Source: Atribacterota bacterium (GTDB taxonomy: Bacteria; Atribacterota; Phoenicimicrobiia; Phoenicimicrobiales; Stramentimicrobiaceae). Taken from it: 51,705 nucleotides of DNA. The translations under genes were made by a program, and so were the position numbers. The DNA lies in assembly GCA_028717805.1 (NCBI GenBank), contig JAQUNC010000011.1:1-51705 (forward strand). Reading direction: 5' to 3'. This document shows, piece by piece, positions 3,591-13,448 of this stretch. The notes under the pieces were generated by a model. It was not told the DNA's origin. It made no database searches and saw nothing but the letters and a program-made list of their open reading frames with translations. The stretch's first letter is position 1; each line of letters opens with the position of its first letter.

Positions 3591-5375
3591 ATGATCCATA
3601 TATCTCCGGCAGAACTCAATAAGAGAAGAGAATTAAATGAGGTATATTTATCTTTAATAGATTCTTTTATAGATAAGTTTTTTTCTAAAATAAAAAAGAA
3701 AAATTTCTTAATCTCTTTTTTGGATGCTGATCAGGTGCTGCTAAAGGTAATCTGCCTGGGTAGAGAAAAGGGGATTTTTACTGAAGGATGTGTAGTAAAA
3801 GAAGAAGTATTTGGTAAGACTGCAGTAAGCTTTTCTCTGAAAAATAATCACGATATAGAATATATTGGACCAGATCATACCTTCCCGGAATTGAAAGATT
3901 GGGCTTGTGCTGCTTCCCCCATTCATACTGCTTCTGGAAATATTCGTGGTGTTATTGCTTTTTCCTCAAAGGTAGATGATTACCCAGATTATGCCCTGGG
4001 AATCGTATCTTCTCTTTCCCAGGCTATAGAAAAAGAAATAACCTGGATGGAAATATCAGAAAATTTAAAACTATCTAAGAAATACCTGGACATAATAAGC
4101 GAAGGAATGAAAGATGGTATTCTCTGCCTGGATAAAGAAGCAAAAATCTTGTATATGAATGATAAAGCAGGGGAAATTTTGCGTGTCAATCCCAGAAGAT
4201 CACTGGGGGAATTTGTAGGAGATATTGTAGATTTTGACCCGGTTATTTTATCTGTCTATGACACCCATAAGGGATATACTGACCGCGAGTTTATTATAAA
4301 TAGCCCTCTTATGGGGACGCTACATTTTGTAAAGAGTGCGGTAGTAGTAAGAGATGAAGAAGGGCAATTTGCAGGAGTGGTAGACTTCTTTAGAGAAATA
4401 ACCAGGGTGAGGAAATTTGTGACTTCCTATATAGGAGCTCAAGCAAAGTTTAGTTTTGCCGATATCATAGGTAATAGTACTAAATTAAAAGAAGCTATCA
4501 GGATTGCCGAAATTGCTGCCAAATCTAATTCCAATGTCTTAATTTTAGGAGAAACTGGTACCGGAAAGGAAATGTTTGCTCAGGCAATACATTATGAGGG
4601 TTTGAGAAGAGCAGGACCATTTGTGGTAATAAACTGTGGAGCAATACCGCGAGAATTAGCAGAAAGTGAGTTTTTTGGTTATGAACCAGGAAGCTTTACC
4701 GGTGCTGATAAAAGGGGAAGACCTGGTAAGTTCGAATTAGCTAATGGGGGCACTATTTTCCTGGATGAAATTGGTGAACTCCCTTTAGACCTTCAGGTAA
4801 AATTATTAAGGGTTCTGCAAGAAAAAAGTGTTACCAGGATTAGCGGAGCCAGGCCTATCCCGGTAGATGTTCGAGTGATTGCTGCCTCGAATAAAGATTT
4901 ATCACGAGAAGTGGATAATGGAAATTTCAGAGTAGATTTATTTCATAGACTAAATGTAATTCAAAACAATATTCCTGCCTTAAGGGAAAGAAATGAAGAT
5001 ATTCTTCTATTAACAAAATATTTTATAGAAAAATTCTCTCAAAAATTGCAAAAAAACATAATAAAGATTGATGATTCATTTTATAAGCCCCTGCTCAACT
5101 ATAGTTTTCCGGGGAACGTTAGAGAACTGGAAAACATCATCGAAAGGGCATTAACTCTCAGTGACAGCAATGAATTAAATAGATTTCACCTACCAGAAGT
5201 TATATTAAAAAATGATTCCCTGTATAAATCTATAGACCAGTTTAAAAGAGATTCTTTAGTTAAGACCCTTCACAATACTAAGTGGAATATTTCCAGAACA
5301 TCAAAAATTTTAGGAATATCCAGACCTACTATTTACCATCATATAAAAAAATGGAATATTAAGAGAGAATCTTAA
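3591..5375 (+). CDS. Sigma-54-dependent transcriptional activator (AcoR-like)
   Basis: 594 residues: a GAF-like sensor at about 20-150, a PAS domain at about 165-275, an AAA+ sigma-54 interaction domain at about 290-520 and a Fis-type helix-turn-helix at about 565-590. Key motifs are intact: Walker A GETGTGKE (320-327), the sigma-54 contact loop as GSFTGA (367-372, S replacing A), Walker B FLDEIGE (390-396) and ISRTSKILGISRPTIYHHIK in the HTH. The protein would bind upstream sites and use ATP to open sigma-54 promoters. A perfect -24/-12 promoter and an array of half-sites lie immediately downstream, in front of the dehydrogenase genes, so these are its obvious target. The GAF-PAS pairing resembles AcoR; the ligand is unknown. 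The start has a weak ribosome binding site 51 nt after lplA, suggesting cotranscription. Confidence 0.93.
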   Translation: MIHISPAELNKRRELNEVYLSLIDSFIDKFFSKIKKKNFLISFLDADQVLLKVICLGREKGIFTEGCVVKEEVFGKTAVSFSLKNNHDIEYIGPDHTFPELKDWACAASPIHTASGNIRGVIAFSSKVDDYPDYALGIVSSLSQAIEKEITWMEISENLKLSKKYLDIISEGMKDGILCLDKEAKILYMNDKAGEILRVNPRRSLGEFVGDIVDFDPVILSVYDTHKGYTDREFIINSPLMGTLHFVKSAVVVRDEEGQFAGVVDFFREITRVRKFVTSYIGAQAKFSFADIIGNSTKLKEAIRIAEIAAKSNSNVLILGETGTGKEMFAQAIHYEGLRRAGPFVVINCGAIPRELAESEFFGYEPGSFTGADKRGRPGKFELANGGTIFLDEIGELPLDLQVKLLRVLQEKSVTRISGARPIPVDVRVIAASNKDLSREVDNGNFRVDLFHRLNVIQNNIPALRERNEDILLLTKYFIEKFSQKLQKNIIKIDDSFYKPLLNYSFPGNVRELENIIERALTLSDSNELNRFHLPEVILKNDSLYKSIDQFKRDSLVKTLHNTKWNISRTSKILGISRPTIYHHIKKWNIKRES

Positions 5376-8739: not shown

Positions 8740-8823
8740 TTGAAGAAGAATAAAATCAATAATAATATAGGAAAAAGCATTTAATTATTTCGATTATTAT
8801 TAAAGATGAGGAGGAAATTTGAA

Positions 8824-9891
8824 ATGAAAAAATCAATAGTACTAAGTATACTTGTTCTGGTTATCATAATTGCTGGTATATCTATTTCTTGGGCTGCTGA
8901 ATTCACACCTAAGAAAGAATATACTATGACTGTTAATGTAGGAAATACATACAGTTGGGGAATGGGTGCTCAGAGGTGGGCTGATTTGATGGCAGAAAAA
9001 ACTAATGGGAAAATTGTTGTTAAACCTTATTGGAATAGCCAGCTGCTGGCTGGTAAACAGATGAATTGGCTCCAGGCAGTTGCTGAAGGAAGTATTGATT
9101 TCGCGGTTGAATCAACAATCAATTCTTCATCAGTAGTAAAATCACATAATCTATTTTCCCTTCCCTTTTTTATCAATACTTTAGAAAATCTGGACAGAAT
9201 AGAGAATGGGAAAAGCGGTCAGATGATATTTGAGGAAATGGAAAAGATGCAGGTTATTGCCTTAGCCTGGGGAGAAAATGGATTCCGTCAGGTAACCAAT
9301 AATGTAAGACCAATAAGTGCTCCGGCAGATTTGAAAGGTTTAAGGATTCGTGTTTGCCCGACAGCAATCTATGATGATATATTTAGAGCATTGGGTGCCG
9401 ATCCCATTCATATGAATTGGGCTGACGCGGTAACTGGTTTCCAGCAGGGAGCAGTGGATGGACAGGAGAATCCCTATGGTGTATTATTACCGGTAAGAAT
9501 CTGGGAATATCATAAGTATGTAACCAACTGGAATTATCTGGCTGATCCGTTAATATTTTGTGTTAATAAGAGAGTATGGGATTCTTTCCCGGATGTAATA
9601 AAATTAGCAGTAAAAGAAGCCGCTAGAGATGCTGCTGAATGGGAAAAGGCTTATGCCAGAAGAGGTTTTGATGGAGAAAGGTCCATTAACATACTGAAAG
9701 AAAAATTTGGAGAGGTACCGGAAATAGTTGATCAGGCTGTCTATATGGAGAGTCAGGGAGCAGAAGTAGTGAATCTAACACCTGAACAATTGAGTGATTT
9801 TATTGAGGCAACTAAAGATGTTACAGATAAATGGGTTGAAATAATTGGTAAAGATTTAGTGGAAGCAGCAAAATCAGACATGAATCAATAA
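8824..9891 (+). CDS. dctP: TRAP transporter solute-binding protein DctP
   Basis: 355 residues from the ATG at 8824. An in-frame ATG at 8806 is rejected because GAGGAGG (8808-8814) lies inside it and is ideally placed for 8824. The signal peptide is MKKSIVLSILVLVIII...SWA. The DctP family core follows: WADLMAEKTNGKI, then LKGLRIRV with the arginine that normally clamps the ligand carboxylate, then DAVTGFQQGAVDGQENPY. The protein delivers an organic acid to the dctQM membrane pair encoded next. It lies 94 nt behind E2 on the same strand, so the ligand is plausibly the oxoacid or ketone used by the dehydrogenase, or a related acid; this is inference from context. Confidence 0.92.
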   Translation: MKKSIVLSILVLVIIIAGISISWAAEFTPKKEYTMTVNVGNTYSWGMGAQRWADLMAEKTNGKIVVKPYWNSQLLAGKQMNWLQAVAEGSIDFAVESTINSSSVVKSHNLFSLPFFINTLENLDRIENGKSGQMIFEEMEKMQVIALAWGENGFRQVTNNVRPISAPADLKGLRIRVCPTAIYDDIFRALGADPIHMNWADAVTGFQQGAVDGQENPYGVLLPVRIWEYHKYVTNWNYLADPLIFCVNKRVWDSFPDVIKLAVKEAARDAAEWEKAYARRGFDGERSINILKEKFGEVPEIVDQAVYMESQGAEVVNLTPEQLSDFIEATKDVTDKWVEIIGKDLVEAAKSDMNQ

Positions 9892-9912
9892 GATTGCCTT
9901 GATTATATAATA

Positions 9913-9944
9913 ATAAGGGGGATACCCACATCTATCCCCCTTAT
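9913..9944 (+). terminator. Strong hairpin between dctP and dctQ
   Basis: A perfect 12-bp stem (9913-9924 with 9933-9944, core GGGGG/CCCCC) with an 8-nt loop. No clear T-tract follows, so it more likely protects the dctP message or partly attenuates transcription into dctQM than fully terminates it. Confidence 0.65.
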
Positions 9945-9970
9945 ACTTTAAAATATTAAGGGGTTACACT

Positions 9971-10450
9971 ATGAAAAAGAAGAAAATTGTGCCTGAGGAA
10001 TTTATTTCGGCAATTTTATTGTTTATTATGGCTTCTATTGCCTTTGTTAATGTTTTAAGCCGGTGGTTTTTTCACCTCTCCTTTGCCTTTACTGAGGAAA
10101 TTGCCATTCATTTTTTTGTCTGGATGACTACCCTGGGAATTGCAATTGCCTTTGAAAGAGGCGCCCATTTAGGTATGACTACCATCTATGAAAAACTACC
10201 TAAGGTTCCCAGAAAAATTGCCGCAGTTATTTCCGCCTTTATGGCTATCTTACTGTTTCTCATAGTAGATTACTATGCTTTAAGAGAAATTTATATGGAT
10301 ATAACCATTTTTCATATGGAAAGCGAAGCATTAAGAATACCCCAATGGATTTATACTATAGGAATACCTATATTTTCTTTATTTATTTTTAAAAATATTA
10401 TCAAGGGAATATTCAAAGAATTTCAGCGAATAGAGGGGGAAATAAAATAA
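9971..10450 (+). CDS. dctQ: TRAP transporter small permease DctQ
   Basis: 159 residues with four hydrophobic helices and family marks such as NVLSRWFFHLSFAFTEEIA and FVWMTTLGIAIAFERGAHLGM. DctQ is the small membrane subunit that couples the binding protein to DctM. AAGGGG lies 6 nt before the ATG. Its TAA overlaps the dctM start by one base (taATG), indicating translational coupling. Confidence 0.9.
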   Translation: MKKKKIVPEEFISAILLFIMASIAFVNVLSRWFFHLSFAFTEEIAIHFFVWMTTLGIAIAFERGAHLGMTTIYEKLPKVPRKIAAVISAFMAILLFLIVDYYALREIYMDITIFHMESEALRIPQWIYTIGIPIFSLFIFKNIIKGIFKEFQRIEGEIK

Positions 10451-11739
10451 TGGAAATAGCAATCCTCTTTGGAATTTTTTTCTTACTTTTATTAATTGGT
10501 GTTCCTATTGGCACCGCTATTGGTTTTGCCTCTGTCTTTGCTATCTGGCAATTTGATATTGGAGTAACGCTGATTTCACGGAATTATTCGGCTGGAATAG
10601 CAAAATTTCCTCTCATAGCGATACCTTTCTTTGTTCTGGCCGGTAGCTTGATGTCCAAGGCAAAATTGGCACAAAAAATTTCTGATCTGGCTACTATCAT
10701 AGTGGGAAAAACTGCAGGAGGACTGGCTATAGCGGGTATTTTAACCTGTATGTTCTGGGGAGCAGTGTCAGGATCGGGACCCGCTACTACGGCAGCGGTT
10801 GGATTAACCATGATCCCAGCAATGATTAATCAAAATTACGATAAGAGTTTTTCTGGCGCCACCATTGCTGCTGCCAGTGGTCTGGCTATTGTCATCCCAC
10901 CCAGTATTGCCTTTATTATTTATGGTAATGTGACAGATGTTTCAGTAGGTGCACTCTTTTTGGGGGGGATTATTCCGGGAATCTTTGTAGGTGTTTTTCT
11001 TATTATTGCCGCTTATTTTATCTCTCGAAAAAGAGGTTATCGAGGAATTTGTGAACGAGGCTCTACCAGAGAAATATGGCAAACCTTTAAAGAGACTATC
11101 TGGGCATTAATAGCTCCAGTGATTATACTTGGTGGAATTTATGCAGGCATTGCTACTCCTACTGAAGCAGCGGTATTTGCTGTTTTTTACAGTATTTTTG
11201 TAGGTGTCTTTATTTATCATACTCTAGATTTAAAAGGTTTATACCAGACCCTGGTTGATTCGGTGATAATGTCTTCTGTTGTTATGTTCGTAGTTGCTTT
11301 TGCCACTCAATTTTCTATTGCTTCTATGGTTTTAGGTGTTATTGACACTATTGCCGAAACAATTATCCAGGTTGCCAAAAGCCCCATAGTTGTCCTCCTA
11401 TTGGCTAATGGTGCCATTCTTATTGCCGGAATGTTTTTGGATGCCATTTCCATTATTTATGTCTTTATGCCCATTTTTATGCCTATCTTGGTTCATTACC
11501 AGATTGATCCACTCTTTTTTGGAATTATCTTTGTTATTGCCCTAGCCATTGGGCAAATTACTCCACCAGTAGCAGTAAACCTTTATGTTGCCGCTAATTT
11601 AACAAAAAGCACTCTGGATGAGATAGCCAGAGAGATTTTACCTTATCTGTTAGCGGCTATTATAGCTTTAATTGTATTGACCTTTATACCGCAAATAAGT
11701 TTACTTATTCCAGTGGAATCGGGCTTATATATTCCTTAA
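10450..11739 (+). CDS. dctM: TRAP transporter large permease DctM
   Basis: 429 residues, about twelve transmembrane segments, typical DctM length. Recognisable segments are PLIAIPFFVLAGSLM, FWGAVSGSGPATTAAVG, VIPPSIAFIIYGNVTDVSVG and the C-terminal GQITPPVAVNLYVAA. It is the sodium-coupled transport channel of the TRAP system and belongs to the IT superfamily. It is the last gene of the dehydrogenase-TRAP block; no clear terminator is visible in the 60 nt before the transposase element. Confidence 0.93.
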   Translation: MEIAILFGIFFLLLLIGVPIGTAIGFASVFAIWQFDIGVTLISRNYSAGIAKFPLIAIPFFVLAGSLMSKAKLAQKISDLATIIVGKTAGGLAIAGILTCMFWGAVSGSGPATTAAVGLTMIPAMINQNYDKSFSGATIAAASGLAIVIPPSIAFIIYGNVTDVSVGALFLGGIIPGIFVGVFLIIAAYFISRKRGYRGICERGSTREIWQTFKETIWALIAPVIILGGIYAGIATPTEAAVFAVFYSIFVGVFIYHTLDLKGLYQTLVDSVIMSSVVMFVVAFATQFSIASMVLGVIDTIAETIIQVAKSPIVVLLLANGAILIAGMFLDAISIIYVFMPIFMPILVHYQIDPLFFGIIFVIALAIGQITPPVAVNLYVAANLTKSTLDEIAREILPYLLAAIIALIVLTFIPQISLLIPVESGLYIP

Positions 11740-11776
11740 CTATATTACGGGGATGATTCCTTTAACAGCTATTTTT

Positions 11777-11802
11777 CAATAGAAGGCAATAGCAATAGAA
11801 GG
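11777..11802. repeat. Direct repeats CAATAGAAGG at the left edge of the RAYT element
   Basis: Two copies of CAATAGAAGG (11777-11786 and 11793-11802), separated by CAATAG, abut and overlap the outer end of the left inverted repeat. They may be part of a REP-like end or an insertion scar. Confidence 0.45.
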
Positions 11803-11824
11803 GGTCAGGCTTCACAAGTTCACA
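11801..11824. repeat. Left inverted repeat of RAYT element
   Basis: A 24-bp sequence whose reverse complement occurs without mismatch at 12735-12758. It carries the -35 box TTCACA of the transposase promoter. Confidence 0.9.
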
Positions 11825-11839
11825 ACATAATGCTATACT
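11811..11839 (+). promoter_or_regulatory. Sigma-70-type promoter of the RAYT gene
   Basis: TTCACA (11811-11816), a 17-nt spacer, then TGC-TATACT (11831-11839), an extended -10. The -35 lies inside the left inverted repeat, so the transposase could regulate itself by binding its own repeat. Confidence 0.55.
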
Positions 11840-11865
11840 GAGAAAAATTAAGACAGGTGAAGATC

Positions 11866-12747
11866 ATGGCCAGAAAACCAAGGATTCATTATGATGGTGC
11901 ACTTTATCATGTCCTTGTTCGGGGGAATAATCGTTCCCATATCTTTAGAAACAAGGAAGATAAGGAAAACTATAAAAAAATTGTCTTAAAATATAAAAAA
12001 AGATATCATTTCAAATTATATGCCTATTGCATCATGGATAATCATGCTCATTTGCTGATAAAGGTGACAGATATTCCCTTGTCAAAAATCATGCAAGGTA
12101 TCCAACAGGTCTTTACCCAAAAATATAATAGAATAAATAACACTACCGGCCATGTATTTGAACAAAGATATAAAGCCTTCCTATGTGCTAAAGATATCTA
12201 TTTACTGTCATTGATTCGTTATATCCACCAGAATCCAGTCCGTGCACATTTAGTTGATGCCCTCAATTACCAATGGAGTAGTCATCAGGAGTATCTTGGC
12301 AATCCCCAACTTGCAGATGTACATTTCCCCTTAAGTTTGTTCGACATCCACAGGGGAAAAGCCCTCAAAAGATATCTGGCTTTTATGGATGAGTTAGAGA
12401 CAAAAGTAATTGAATCAATGAAGAAAGAAGAAGATGAAATAGAAGAACCAAAAAATACTAAAAAAAGCCCTAAAGTAGCAAGTGATACCCTAATTAAGAT
12501 CATTACAGAAGTCACTAAAATAGAAATAGAGAAGATAAGAGGCAATGCAAAAAGCAAGACAAGATCAGATATTAGAAAGCTATATATTACTACGCTAAAA
12601 AAATATACAGATTTACCCAATAAGGAAATAGCCAGTTTACTTGGGATCGGAACTTCAGCGGTAAGCAATGTATTAGCCGGGAGATATCAAGAAAATGATT
12701 TTATCATAAATTCGAGTAGAGAAATTGAAAAACATGTGAACTTGTGA
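11866..12747 (+). CDS. REP-associated tyrosine transposase (Y1/HUH family, RAYT)
   Basis: 293 residues from ATG 11866 (AGGTGA 5 nt upstream; the protein then begins MARKPRIHYDGALYHV as usual). A GTG at 11857 is an alternative. The Y1_Tnp domain is at about 1-150 with HUH residues H60-A-H62 in MDNHAHLLI, FEQRYKAFL, and DIYLLSLIRYIHQNPVRA, where Y112 or Y119 is the candidate nucleophile. The C-terminal third adds a charged linker and a helix-turn-helix (LPNKEIASLLGIGTSAVSNVL), an extension found in many longer RAYTs. These enzymes nick single-stranded DNA at REP-like hairpins. The last codons and the stop lie inside the right inverted repeat. It looks intact. Confidence 0.9.
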   Translation: MARKPRIHYDGALYHVLVRGNNRSHIFRNKEDKENYKKIVLKYKKRYHFKLYAYCIMDNHAHLLIKVTDIPLSKIMQGIQQVFTQKYNRINNTTGHVFEQRYKAFLCAKDIYLLSLIRYIHQNPVRAHLVDALNYQWSSHQEYLGNPQLADVHFPLSLFDIHRGKALKRYLAFMDELETKVIESMKKEEDEIEEPKNTKKSPKVASDTLIKIITEVTKIEIEKIRGNAKSKTRSDIRKLYITTLKKYTDLPNKEIASLLGIGTSAVSNVLAGRYQENDFIINSSREIEKHVNL

Positions 12748-12758
12748 AGCCTGACCCC
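12735..12758. repeat. Right inverted repeat of RAYT element
   Basis: Exact reverse complement of 11801-11824. It overlaps the final four codons and the stop codon of the transposase gene. Confidence 0.9.
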
Positions 12759-12790
12759 CTGTGTACCCTGCAATGGTCAATAAGTTTTAG

Positions 12791-12820
12791 TTGCGATGGA
12801 TAGACCATCAAGTGTAAAAT
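12791..12820 (+). promoter_or_regulatory. Possible promoter with small palindrome
   Basis: TTGCGA (12791-12796), an 18-nt spacer and TAAAAT (12815-12820). The spacer contains GATGG-ATAGA-CCATC, a perfect 5-bp inverted repeat that could be an operator for the kinase/phosphoesterase pair. Confidence 0.3.
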
Positions 12821-12944
12821 ATTTATTGCTATAGCAGATTGTTCCCGAGAAAAAAAATATCAGTAAGATTAAAAATAAGAGCACCATTTGTATGTGCCAG
12901 GGTGAGGTACTGATATACAGAAACTGTCATCTGAGCAGGTAAAT

Positions 12945-13448
12945 ATGAAAAAGCTAATTCTATTAAACGGAACAATGGGGGCAGGAAAAACAACGATCAG
13001 TCAGGAACTTCTTCAATTGCTCCAGCCGGGTGTCTTTTTAGACGGAGACTGGTGTTGGAACATGAACCCGTTTATCGTCAATGAGGAAACCAGGCAGATT
13101 GTGCTGAAAAACATCTGCTTTATGCTCAACAGTTTCATCAATTGTTCAGAATATAAATACATCATATTCTGCTGGGTAATGCATCAGGAAGAGATTATCA
13201 GTGAAATTCTTAAACATCTGAATTTAGAAAACATCAAAACATACATTTTTACCTTAACACTGACAGAAGCAGCCTTGAGTAAAAGATTAATGAAGGATAT
13301 TGCACGACATCAAAGGACGCTTGATGTCCTGGAAAGAAGCATCAAGAGAATTGGATTATATAAAAACATGGATACATCGAAAATCGATGTTAGCGATATT
13401 ACCCCTTTTCAAGCAGCCAAGAAAATAGCAGAATTAGTTAGCAAATGA
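12945..13448 (+). CDS. Small P-loop kinase-like ATPase
   Basis: 167 residues with Walker A GTMGAGKTT (from residue 9), a second acidic motif FLDGDWCWNMNPF (around 33-44) and a basic lid-like region (SKRLMKDIARHQRT). The layout is that of shikimate/gluconate/nucleoside-kinase-like AAA_33 proteins, and close relatives are familiar from Firmicutes only as 'nucleotide kinase'. It would phosphorylate a small molecule or nucleic-acid end, but the substrate is unknown. The ribosome binding site is weak (AGGT). It is followed after 24 nt by a metallophosphoesterase on the same strand, so the two probably act together. Confidence 0.75.
   Translation: MKKLILLNGTMGAGKTTISQELLQLLQPGVFLDGDWCWNMNPFIVNEETRQIVLKNICFMLNSFINCSEYKYIIFCWVMHQEEIISEILKHLNLENIKTYIFTLTLTEAALSKRLMKDIARHQRTLDVLERSIKRIGLYKNMDTSKIDVSDITPFQAAKKIAELVSK

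Follow-up and report, generated by a model that had tools for sequence, protein, structure and literature searches.

Analysed here was a window of 51,705 nt, which is the complete contig C11 in the draft genome (G000; 2.27 Mb) of an Atribacterota bacterium. It contains an element of 958 bp, in which a single gene is enclosed by two 24-nt terminal inverted repeats (TIRs), at 11801-11824 on the forward strand and 12735-12758 on the reverse strand. As proposed in the preliminary description, the repeats are perfect: an inverted-repeat search paired 24 of 24 positions, 910 nt apart, and the chance of such a match within 1.6 kb is about 5e-9 by arithmetic, assuming equal base use. The outer core of the left TIR, GGGGTCAGGC (11801-11810, forward), is kept in relatives and fits the GGGGWSAS motif given in the covered text of PMC3733652, present in the TIR as GGGGTCAG. 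It is followed by two copies of the 6-mer TTCACA (11811-11816 and 11819-11824, both forward), which form an 8-bp direct repeat. The gene (11866-12747, forward) comprises 293 codons and a stop; it starts at the ATG at 11866, the mechanical start of the open reading frame list being a GTG at 11857, and by sequence reading a Shine-Dalgarno-like AGGTGA lies at 11855-11860. In the same list it is the sole gene of the element. A set of TRAP transporter genes (DctP, DctQ and DctM; 8806-11739) ends just upstream.

For comparison, we assembled a set of 48 elements, from 109 distinct open reading frames, requiring at least 255 aa and a [GA]GG[GT]TCA[AG][GA] pair at 17 of 24 positions or more; nine of the frames left out scored above 300. 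Both the full set (n=48) and a closer clade (n=37) were analysed.

The ends of the element overlap the signals of its gene. The first inner 6-mer is also a -35-like box, 17 nt ahead of a -10-like TATACT (11834-11839, forward) outside the repeat, congruent with the earlier placement of the promoter. With a TG ahead of TATACT, the pair reaches 10 of 12 matches and ranks first among 12 sites; by itself such a scan is weak, since shuffled sequences average 5.6 sites. In the clade, matches to TATAAT peak at element positions 34-39, again 17 nt past the first 6-mer, with at least five of six bases in 16 of 37 elements, and no other examined offset exceeds four elements. This single-position peak disappears when 28 divergent representatives drawn from all families are pooled (4/28). 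At the opposite end, the right TIR includes the TGA stop codon (12745-12747), as previously described, but holds only three whole codons before it (Val-Asn-Leu) and one base of the fourth, not four codons as had been claimed. Of the 48 elements, 35 have their stop inside the 24 nt of the right TIR (37 by a looser count), and in 19 it is the TGA of CCTGACCCC, hence of the core itself. The -35 box and stop inside the ends, singled out in the preliminary description, are thus a property of the kind.

The gene encodes an intact-looking 293-residue Y1 (HUH) transposase, the C-terminal third of which is predicted to fold like domain IV of DnaA; the earlier view of a compact, intact-looking transposase element with long perfect ends was thus borne out. 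Residues 12-123 match the Pfam family Y1_Tnp (4.1e-16) and residues 207-260 Bac_DnaA_C (3.7e-5; 24.1 bits, below the curated cut-off of 31.5), while the match to REP_Tyr_transpos, at 69.7 bits, stays below its cut-off of 80. A search of solved structures with a profile built from 21 relatives recovers DnaA at 0.0015, over the C-terminal part. In an AlphaFold2 model (pLDDT 84.7, pTM 0.59, the latter leaving the relative domain placement uncertain), residues 1-183 match TnpA_REP on a REP hairpin (4er8; Z 15.1), and residues 204-293 (12475-12744, forward), a helix-turn-helix (HTH) domain, resemble domain IV of DnaA bound to its box (1j1v; Z 12.0, rmsd 2.2, 89 residues aligned). Structure matches to AAV Rep and Thg1 (Z 5.8-7.9) were rejected as kin and read as a common fold. 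The HUH motif is His60-x-His62 (12043-12051, forward); the putative catalytic Tyr119 (12220-12222, forward), a role assigned from family knowledge, lies within the part matching TnpA_REP. His60 is found in 47 of 48 elements and His62 and Tyr119 in all 48, the protein of the window having all three; in L021, the sole element without His60, the left TIR is degenerate as well.

Across the collected ends the outer core is common and the inner words differ, each end being composed of GGGGTCAGGC and two 6-mers at 8-bp spacing. Aside from TTCACA-AG-TTCACA in the window, we encountered TTGACA-AA-TTGACA, ATGACA-AA-ATGACA, TTTTAT-AA-TTTTAT, TTGCAT-TA-TTGCAT and others. To assess this repeat, for which left ends only were used, the first 6-mers were re-paired with second 6-mers of other elements. 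Among 30 distinct clade ends, positions 11-16 and 19-24 agree at 4.13 of 6 bases, against 2.78 after re-pairing (maximum 3.47; 0/5000), and at offsets of 5, 6, 7, 9 and 10 the identity of 6-mers is at chance level. All 39 distinct ends yielded 3.67 against 2.50 (0/5000). The signal persists among ends differing at more than 4 of 15 positions (n=21; 3.52 against 2.24, 0/10,000), seven of which reach an identity of at least five of six, and among those differing at more than 5 of 15 (n=17), where 1 of 10,000 re-pairings reaches the observed value. Ten of 32 listed ends match at three or fewer of six positions, and one subclade has TTGAAA/TTCCCT. Other arrangements of a repeated word were also seen. 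In L055, L058, L059, L144 and others, GGGGACGG ends form hairpins with a variable stem and a loop that keeps the core, so that copies of the variable word face each other across the core instead of following it in tandem; at L023 2948-2985, ACTTCACTAAA flanks the core on both sides, a third arrangement.

Next, partial Mantel tests were exploited to assess which part of the protein varies together with the 6-mers. Within the clade, the inner TIR tracks the HTH domain given Y1 (0.26, p 0.003) and does not track Y1 given the HTH domain (-0.017, p 0.58). The recognition helix behaves likewise, given Y1 (0.294, p 0.002) and given Y1 plus linker (0.269, p 0.002); the linker also tracks the inner TIR given Y1 (0.208, p 0.002). 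Over all 48 elements both domains contribute, the HTH domain given Y1 with 0.165 (p 0.003) and Y1 given the HTH domain with 0.135 (p 0.02). The outer core, on the other hand, follows Y1 given the HTH domain over all 48 (0.385; 0 of 1000) and not the HTH domain given Y1 (-0.009), and tracks neither domain inside the clade (-0.037, p 0.68 for Y1 given the HTH domain; -0.096). A nearest-neighbour check favoured the recognition helix in 13 clade elements and Y1 in eight, with five ties; over all elements the recognition helix was better in 12, worse in 16 and tied in seven, and in an earlier 38-element set the nearest-HTH neighbour was better in five, worse in 11 and tied in four. Individual elements point both ways: L028 and L179, both with TTTTAT ends, are mutual nearest neighbours by HTH domain and not by Y1, whereas L025 shares its TTGACA ends with L026 and L035, yet has another element as its nearest by whole HTH domain. 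Thus, there is fair, not strong, support that the 6-mers of the closest clade vary with the DnaA-like domain and not with Y1, the picture over all 48 being mixed.

We then turned to copies elsewhere. Allowing three mismatches, the 24-mer occurs seven times in its own genome, and the inner end sequence TTCACANNTTCACA nine times, against none for either reversed pattern; repeat-like sequences dispersed in the genome, for which the preliminary description had proposed a search, are therefore present. Contig C35 contains a 5'-truncated copy of 12471-12758 (C35:9291-9578; 288 nt, 100% identical) and TIR-like sites at 4273, about 5163 and 6525. The sequence GGGGACAGGTACCTGG at the cut end of this copy was considered as a repeated element of its own, but is hardly a family, as one exact copy and one with two mismatches were found (control 0). 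With up to two mismatches, GGGTCAGGCTTCACANNTTCACA is present in 15 of 61 genomes, all within the 24 of the same order and in none of the 37 others, its reversed pattern being absent from all 61. The idea of repeats unique to this locus was hence rejected, as they recur in the genome and in its relatives. Same-order genomes also contain solo ends. One of the 61, G006, has an 80-bp unit made of two perfect ends, G013 and G017 have three and one inverted dimers, respectively, that are less perfect and measure 58-77 bp, and in G009 an internally deleted gene keeps residues 1-24 and 116-293 between a degenerate left end and an intact right one. Full-length relatives are sparse. Among 101 genomes, matches at E 1e-100 or better are restricted to G000, G007 of the same family (source of L022) and G013 of the same order (source of L021), L021 and L022 being from Candidatus Atribacteria MAGs. 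Among 391 genomes from a single class, seven contain a relative at 1e-85, and among 393 from a single order, 12 do so at 1e-75, counts that include the query source genomes, with six candidates scored per genome. Among plasmids four records match, none with a place spanning 80% of the protein; viral contigs yielded one relative, and PHROGs no match at 0.001.

Further sequences of related character occur in the same genome. Two more TIRYT-like genes lie at C18:40742-41596, with an in-frame stop, and at C20:30316-31011 (L089), with GGGGACGGTTCTTTTGTGT ends. In L203 (C51:955-1013), a 59-bp unit consists of two perfect 27-nt arms around a 5-nt loop, with ends GGGGTCAGGTCTTCACATTTGACAT that contain a 7-bp repeat, and a second copy, at about 115-173, has one outer core replaced; the unit, a dimer of ends from another TIR family, is REPIN-like. 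The end of an IS110-family transposase (Transposase_20) in L100 (C63, about 151-600) has an 89%-alike counterpart in L203 (1-140), and both adjoin TIRs of two different families at the identical junction GGGAAGTTCAGG, as if an IS110 element targeted the TIR core, by analogy with ISPpu9, which is described in the covered part of PMC8450116 as targeting REPs. Finally, a pair of small open reading frames in L090 (1958-2633, C35) and L218 (465-1082, C80) is 79% alike and in each case adjoins a TIR copy; the pair on C35, without Pfam match at 0.001, sits between two TIRs of the same orientation.

The surroundings were inspected for signs of integration. Long matches to dctM, the gene to the left of the element, exist in seven relatives (any match in 14 of 61 genomes, own included), and in all seven loci the available dctM flank is free of a TIRYT, one locus (L104) stopping inside dctM. 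The right flank was found in its own genome only among the 61, so the comparison with relatives, which the preliminary description had put forward, yielded no clean empty site. The gene was not seen at this place in the relative loci and ends are present elsewhere, so the pattern named there as refuting, unique repeats with the gene at one place in all relatives, does not hold. At the DNA level the element is 74% identical to L021 and, in two pieces, 70-71% to L022; dctM identities are 70-79% in the seven relatives (76% in G007), with no long dctM match in G013. By this indirect comparison there is no sign of horizontal transfer among these genomes. Among the 30 elements whose two ends both carry GGGG, none is flanked by a target duplication of at least 4 bp, shorter ones being 3 bp in one, 2 bp in five and 1 bp in two. 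Absence of a longer target duplication is expected for Y1 enzymes. In 19 of the 30, the bases beside the two GGGG ends mirror each other, against 11.2 expected (2 of 2000), for which we have no explanation, and beyond an A/T leaning a conserved outer target motif was not recovered.

Based on the observed ends, gene, dispersal, tandem repeat and covariation, and on the predicted fold, we consider it likely, with a probability of about 0.7, that the locus is an IS-like 958-bp TIRYT element in which Y1 cuts the ends, DnaA-IV-like domains read the 6-mers, and binding at the left end represses the element's own promoter. Judging from fold and family, the Y1/HUH domain (residues 1-183) would work at the outer core GGGGTCAGGC, cutting and joining single-stranded DNA at the ends, probably by way of a single-strand intermediate. 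The C-terminal domains, one per monomer, may contact the two 6-mers. As the first 6-mer is the -35 box, enzyme on the left end should silence transcription of its own gene; binding of its own promoter, raised as a possibility in the preliminary description, fits both the identity of repeat and -35 box and the HTH covariation. The right end supplies the stop codon, so the element is kept minimal, and gene-less ends, namely solo TIRs, TIR dimers and deleted copies, also move or persist. A more far-reaching version is that a captured DnaA domain IV reads a fast-changing duplex 6-mer pair, so that a domain swap would re-target the enzyme, and end recognition and self-repression would be one binding event; we regard this as tentative, with somewhat less than an even chance of being correct. 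The earlier notion of a freshly mobile element holds in part: the truncated copy, being 100% identical over 288 nt, points to recent copying, though in a draft assembly, but neither an empty site nor a second full copy in the genome was recovered.

Domestication would offer a different account, in which the host retains a RAYT-like protein, the TIRs are autoregulatory operators and the scattered copies old remnants, a situation familiar from many RAYTs and REPs. The single full copy and the overlap of repeat and promoter agree with it, as does the lack of a full-length close TIRYT in 12 of the 15 end-bearing genomes, only G000, G007 and G013 holding one at E 1e-100. Still, we find it unlikely, considering that the gene is not beside dctM in the relatives examined, that its presence is so sparse (7/391 and 12/393), that both ends are perfect even if a 3' end needs no operator, and that the truncated copy is identical.

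The recognised unit could also be a single-strand fold, with a RAYT-like enzyme acting on hairpins and not on an HTH-read duplex. In related families (e.g. L055, L058 and L059) the ends do form hairpins, whose loop contains GGGGACGG, and the TnpA_REP structure 4er8 includes a REP hairpin. The 24-nt end is however a direct repeat, not a palindrome, and within 11500-13100, at stems of at least 12 nt, we saw neither a close inverted pair at the ends of the gene nor a GTAG-tagged hairpin, the two other pairs being 81% and 92% complementary and 217 and 1026 nt apart; to us this explanation is about as improbable as domestication. Less probable again is that the 8-bp repeat arises from the make-up of promoters, with their TTGACA-like boxes, and not from protein recognition. 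The 6-mers are often TTGACA or TTCACA, and the first is at -35, but both copies shift together to less promoter-like words (TTTTAT, ATGACA, TTGCAT), and the right ends of these elements carry the same pairs. We retain the mobile TIRYT element as the preferred reading of the locus.

By definition, IS200/IS605 elements end in subterminal hairpins and have no TIR. Like IS608 and ISDra2 of this family, the present element combines an HUH motif with a tyrosine and has no target duplication of at least 4 bp; it differs in that perfect 24-bp TIRs replace the subterminal hairpins, a DnaA-like domain is added and a second gene is absent. With RAYT/REPtron and REPIN systems it shares the Y1 fold (4er8) and the scattering of gene-less solo ends and short inverted dimers, and it is set apart from RAYT/REPtron by its perfect TIRs.

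The closest fit is to TIRYT/TIRtron, a kind named in 2013 and hence known, albeit little studied. According to the covered text of Di Nocera 2013 (PMC3733652), in these elements long TIRs with no relation to REPs, some with GGGGWSAS, border a RAYT-like gene; the TIR families occur singly, as dimers or grouped, and TIRs may overlap gene ends. The description of the gene as a RAYT with unusual ends is thereby amended: a Y1 transposase it is, but rather than an odd RAYT beside REPs it fits a TIRYT, where overlap of end and gene is common. Shared features are the RAYT-like Y1 gene, the long TIRs, GGGGWSAS, the repeated TIR family and the TIR/gene overlap; the host lineage differs from those in the covered text of PMC3733652, which, as far as covered, does not describe the internal 8-bp tandem repeat, the covariation with the C-terminal domain or the shared -35 place. 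Among the publications retrieved on such elements, titles and abstract beginnings mention no tandem repeats in TIRYT ends, Figure 9 and the supplementary TIR sequences of PMC3733652 lying outside this coverage, and a literature search on Atribacter insertion sequences and transposases brought up, judged by title, no report of such an element. In the covered parts of Quentin 2018 (PMC6006769), 20 of 26 published TIRYTs are placed in TnpAREP subclass 2.1, and subgroup 2.1.2 is described as having Bac_DnaA_C-like tails after the Y1 core and no REP nearby, congruent with the Y1 core and Bac_DnaA_C-like or HTH C-terminal domain seen here. That account noted that the GGGG motif is unlike a DnaA box, such that the tail may not read the ends or has a new target, leaving end mechanism and tail role open in 2018; here, by contrast, the inner 6-mers are a candidate target of the DnaA-like domain. 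The two-part end is thus a new and testable account of end construction for a known kind. Aggregated, the two-part end and the covariation offer a concrete answer to the puzzle of ordinary inverted-repeat ends in a family of hairpin-cutting enzymes, one for which TTCACA, TTGACA, TTTTAT and ATGACA ends provide natural variants.
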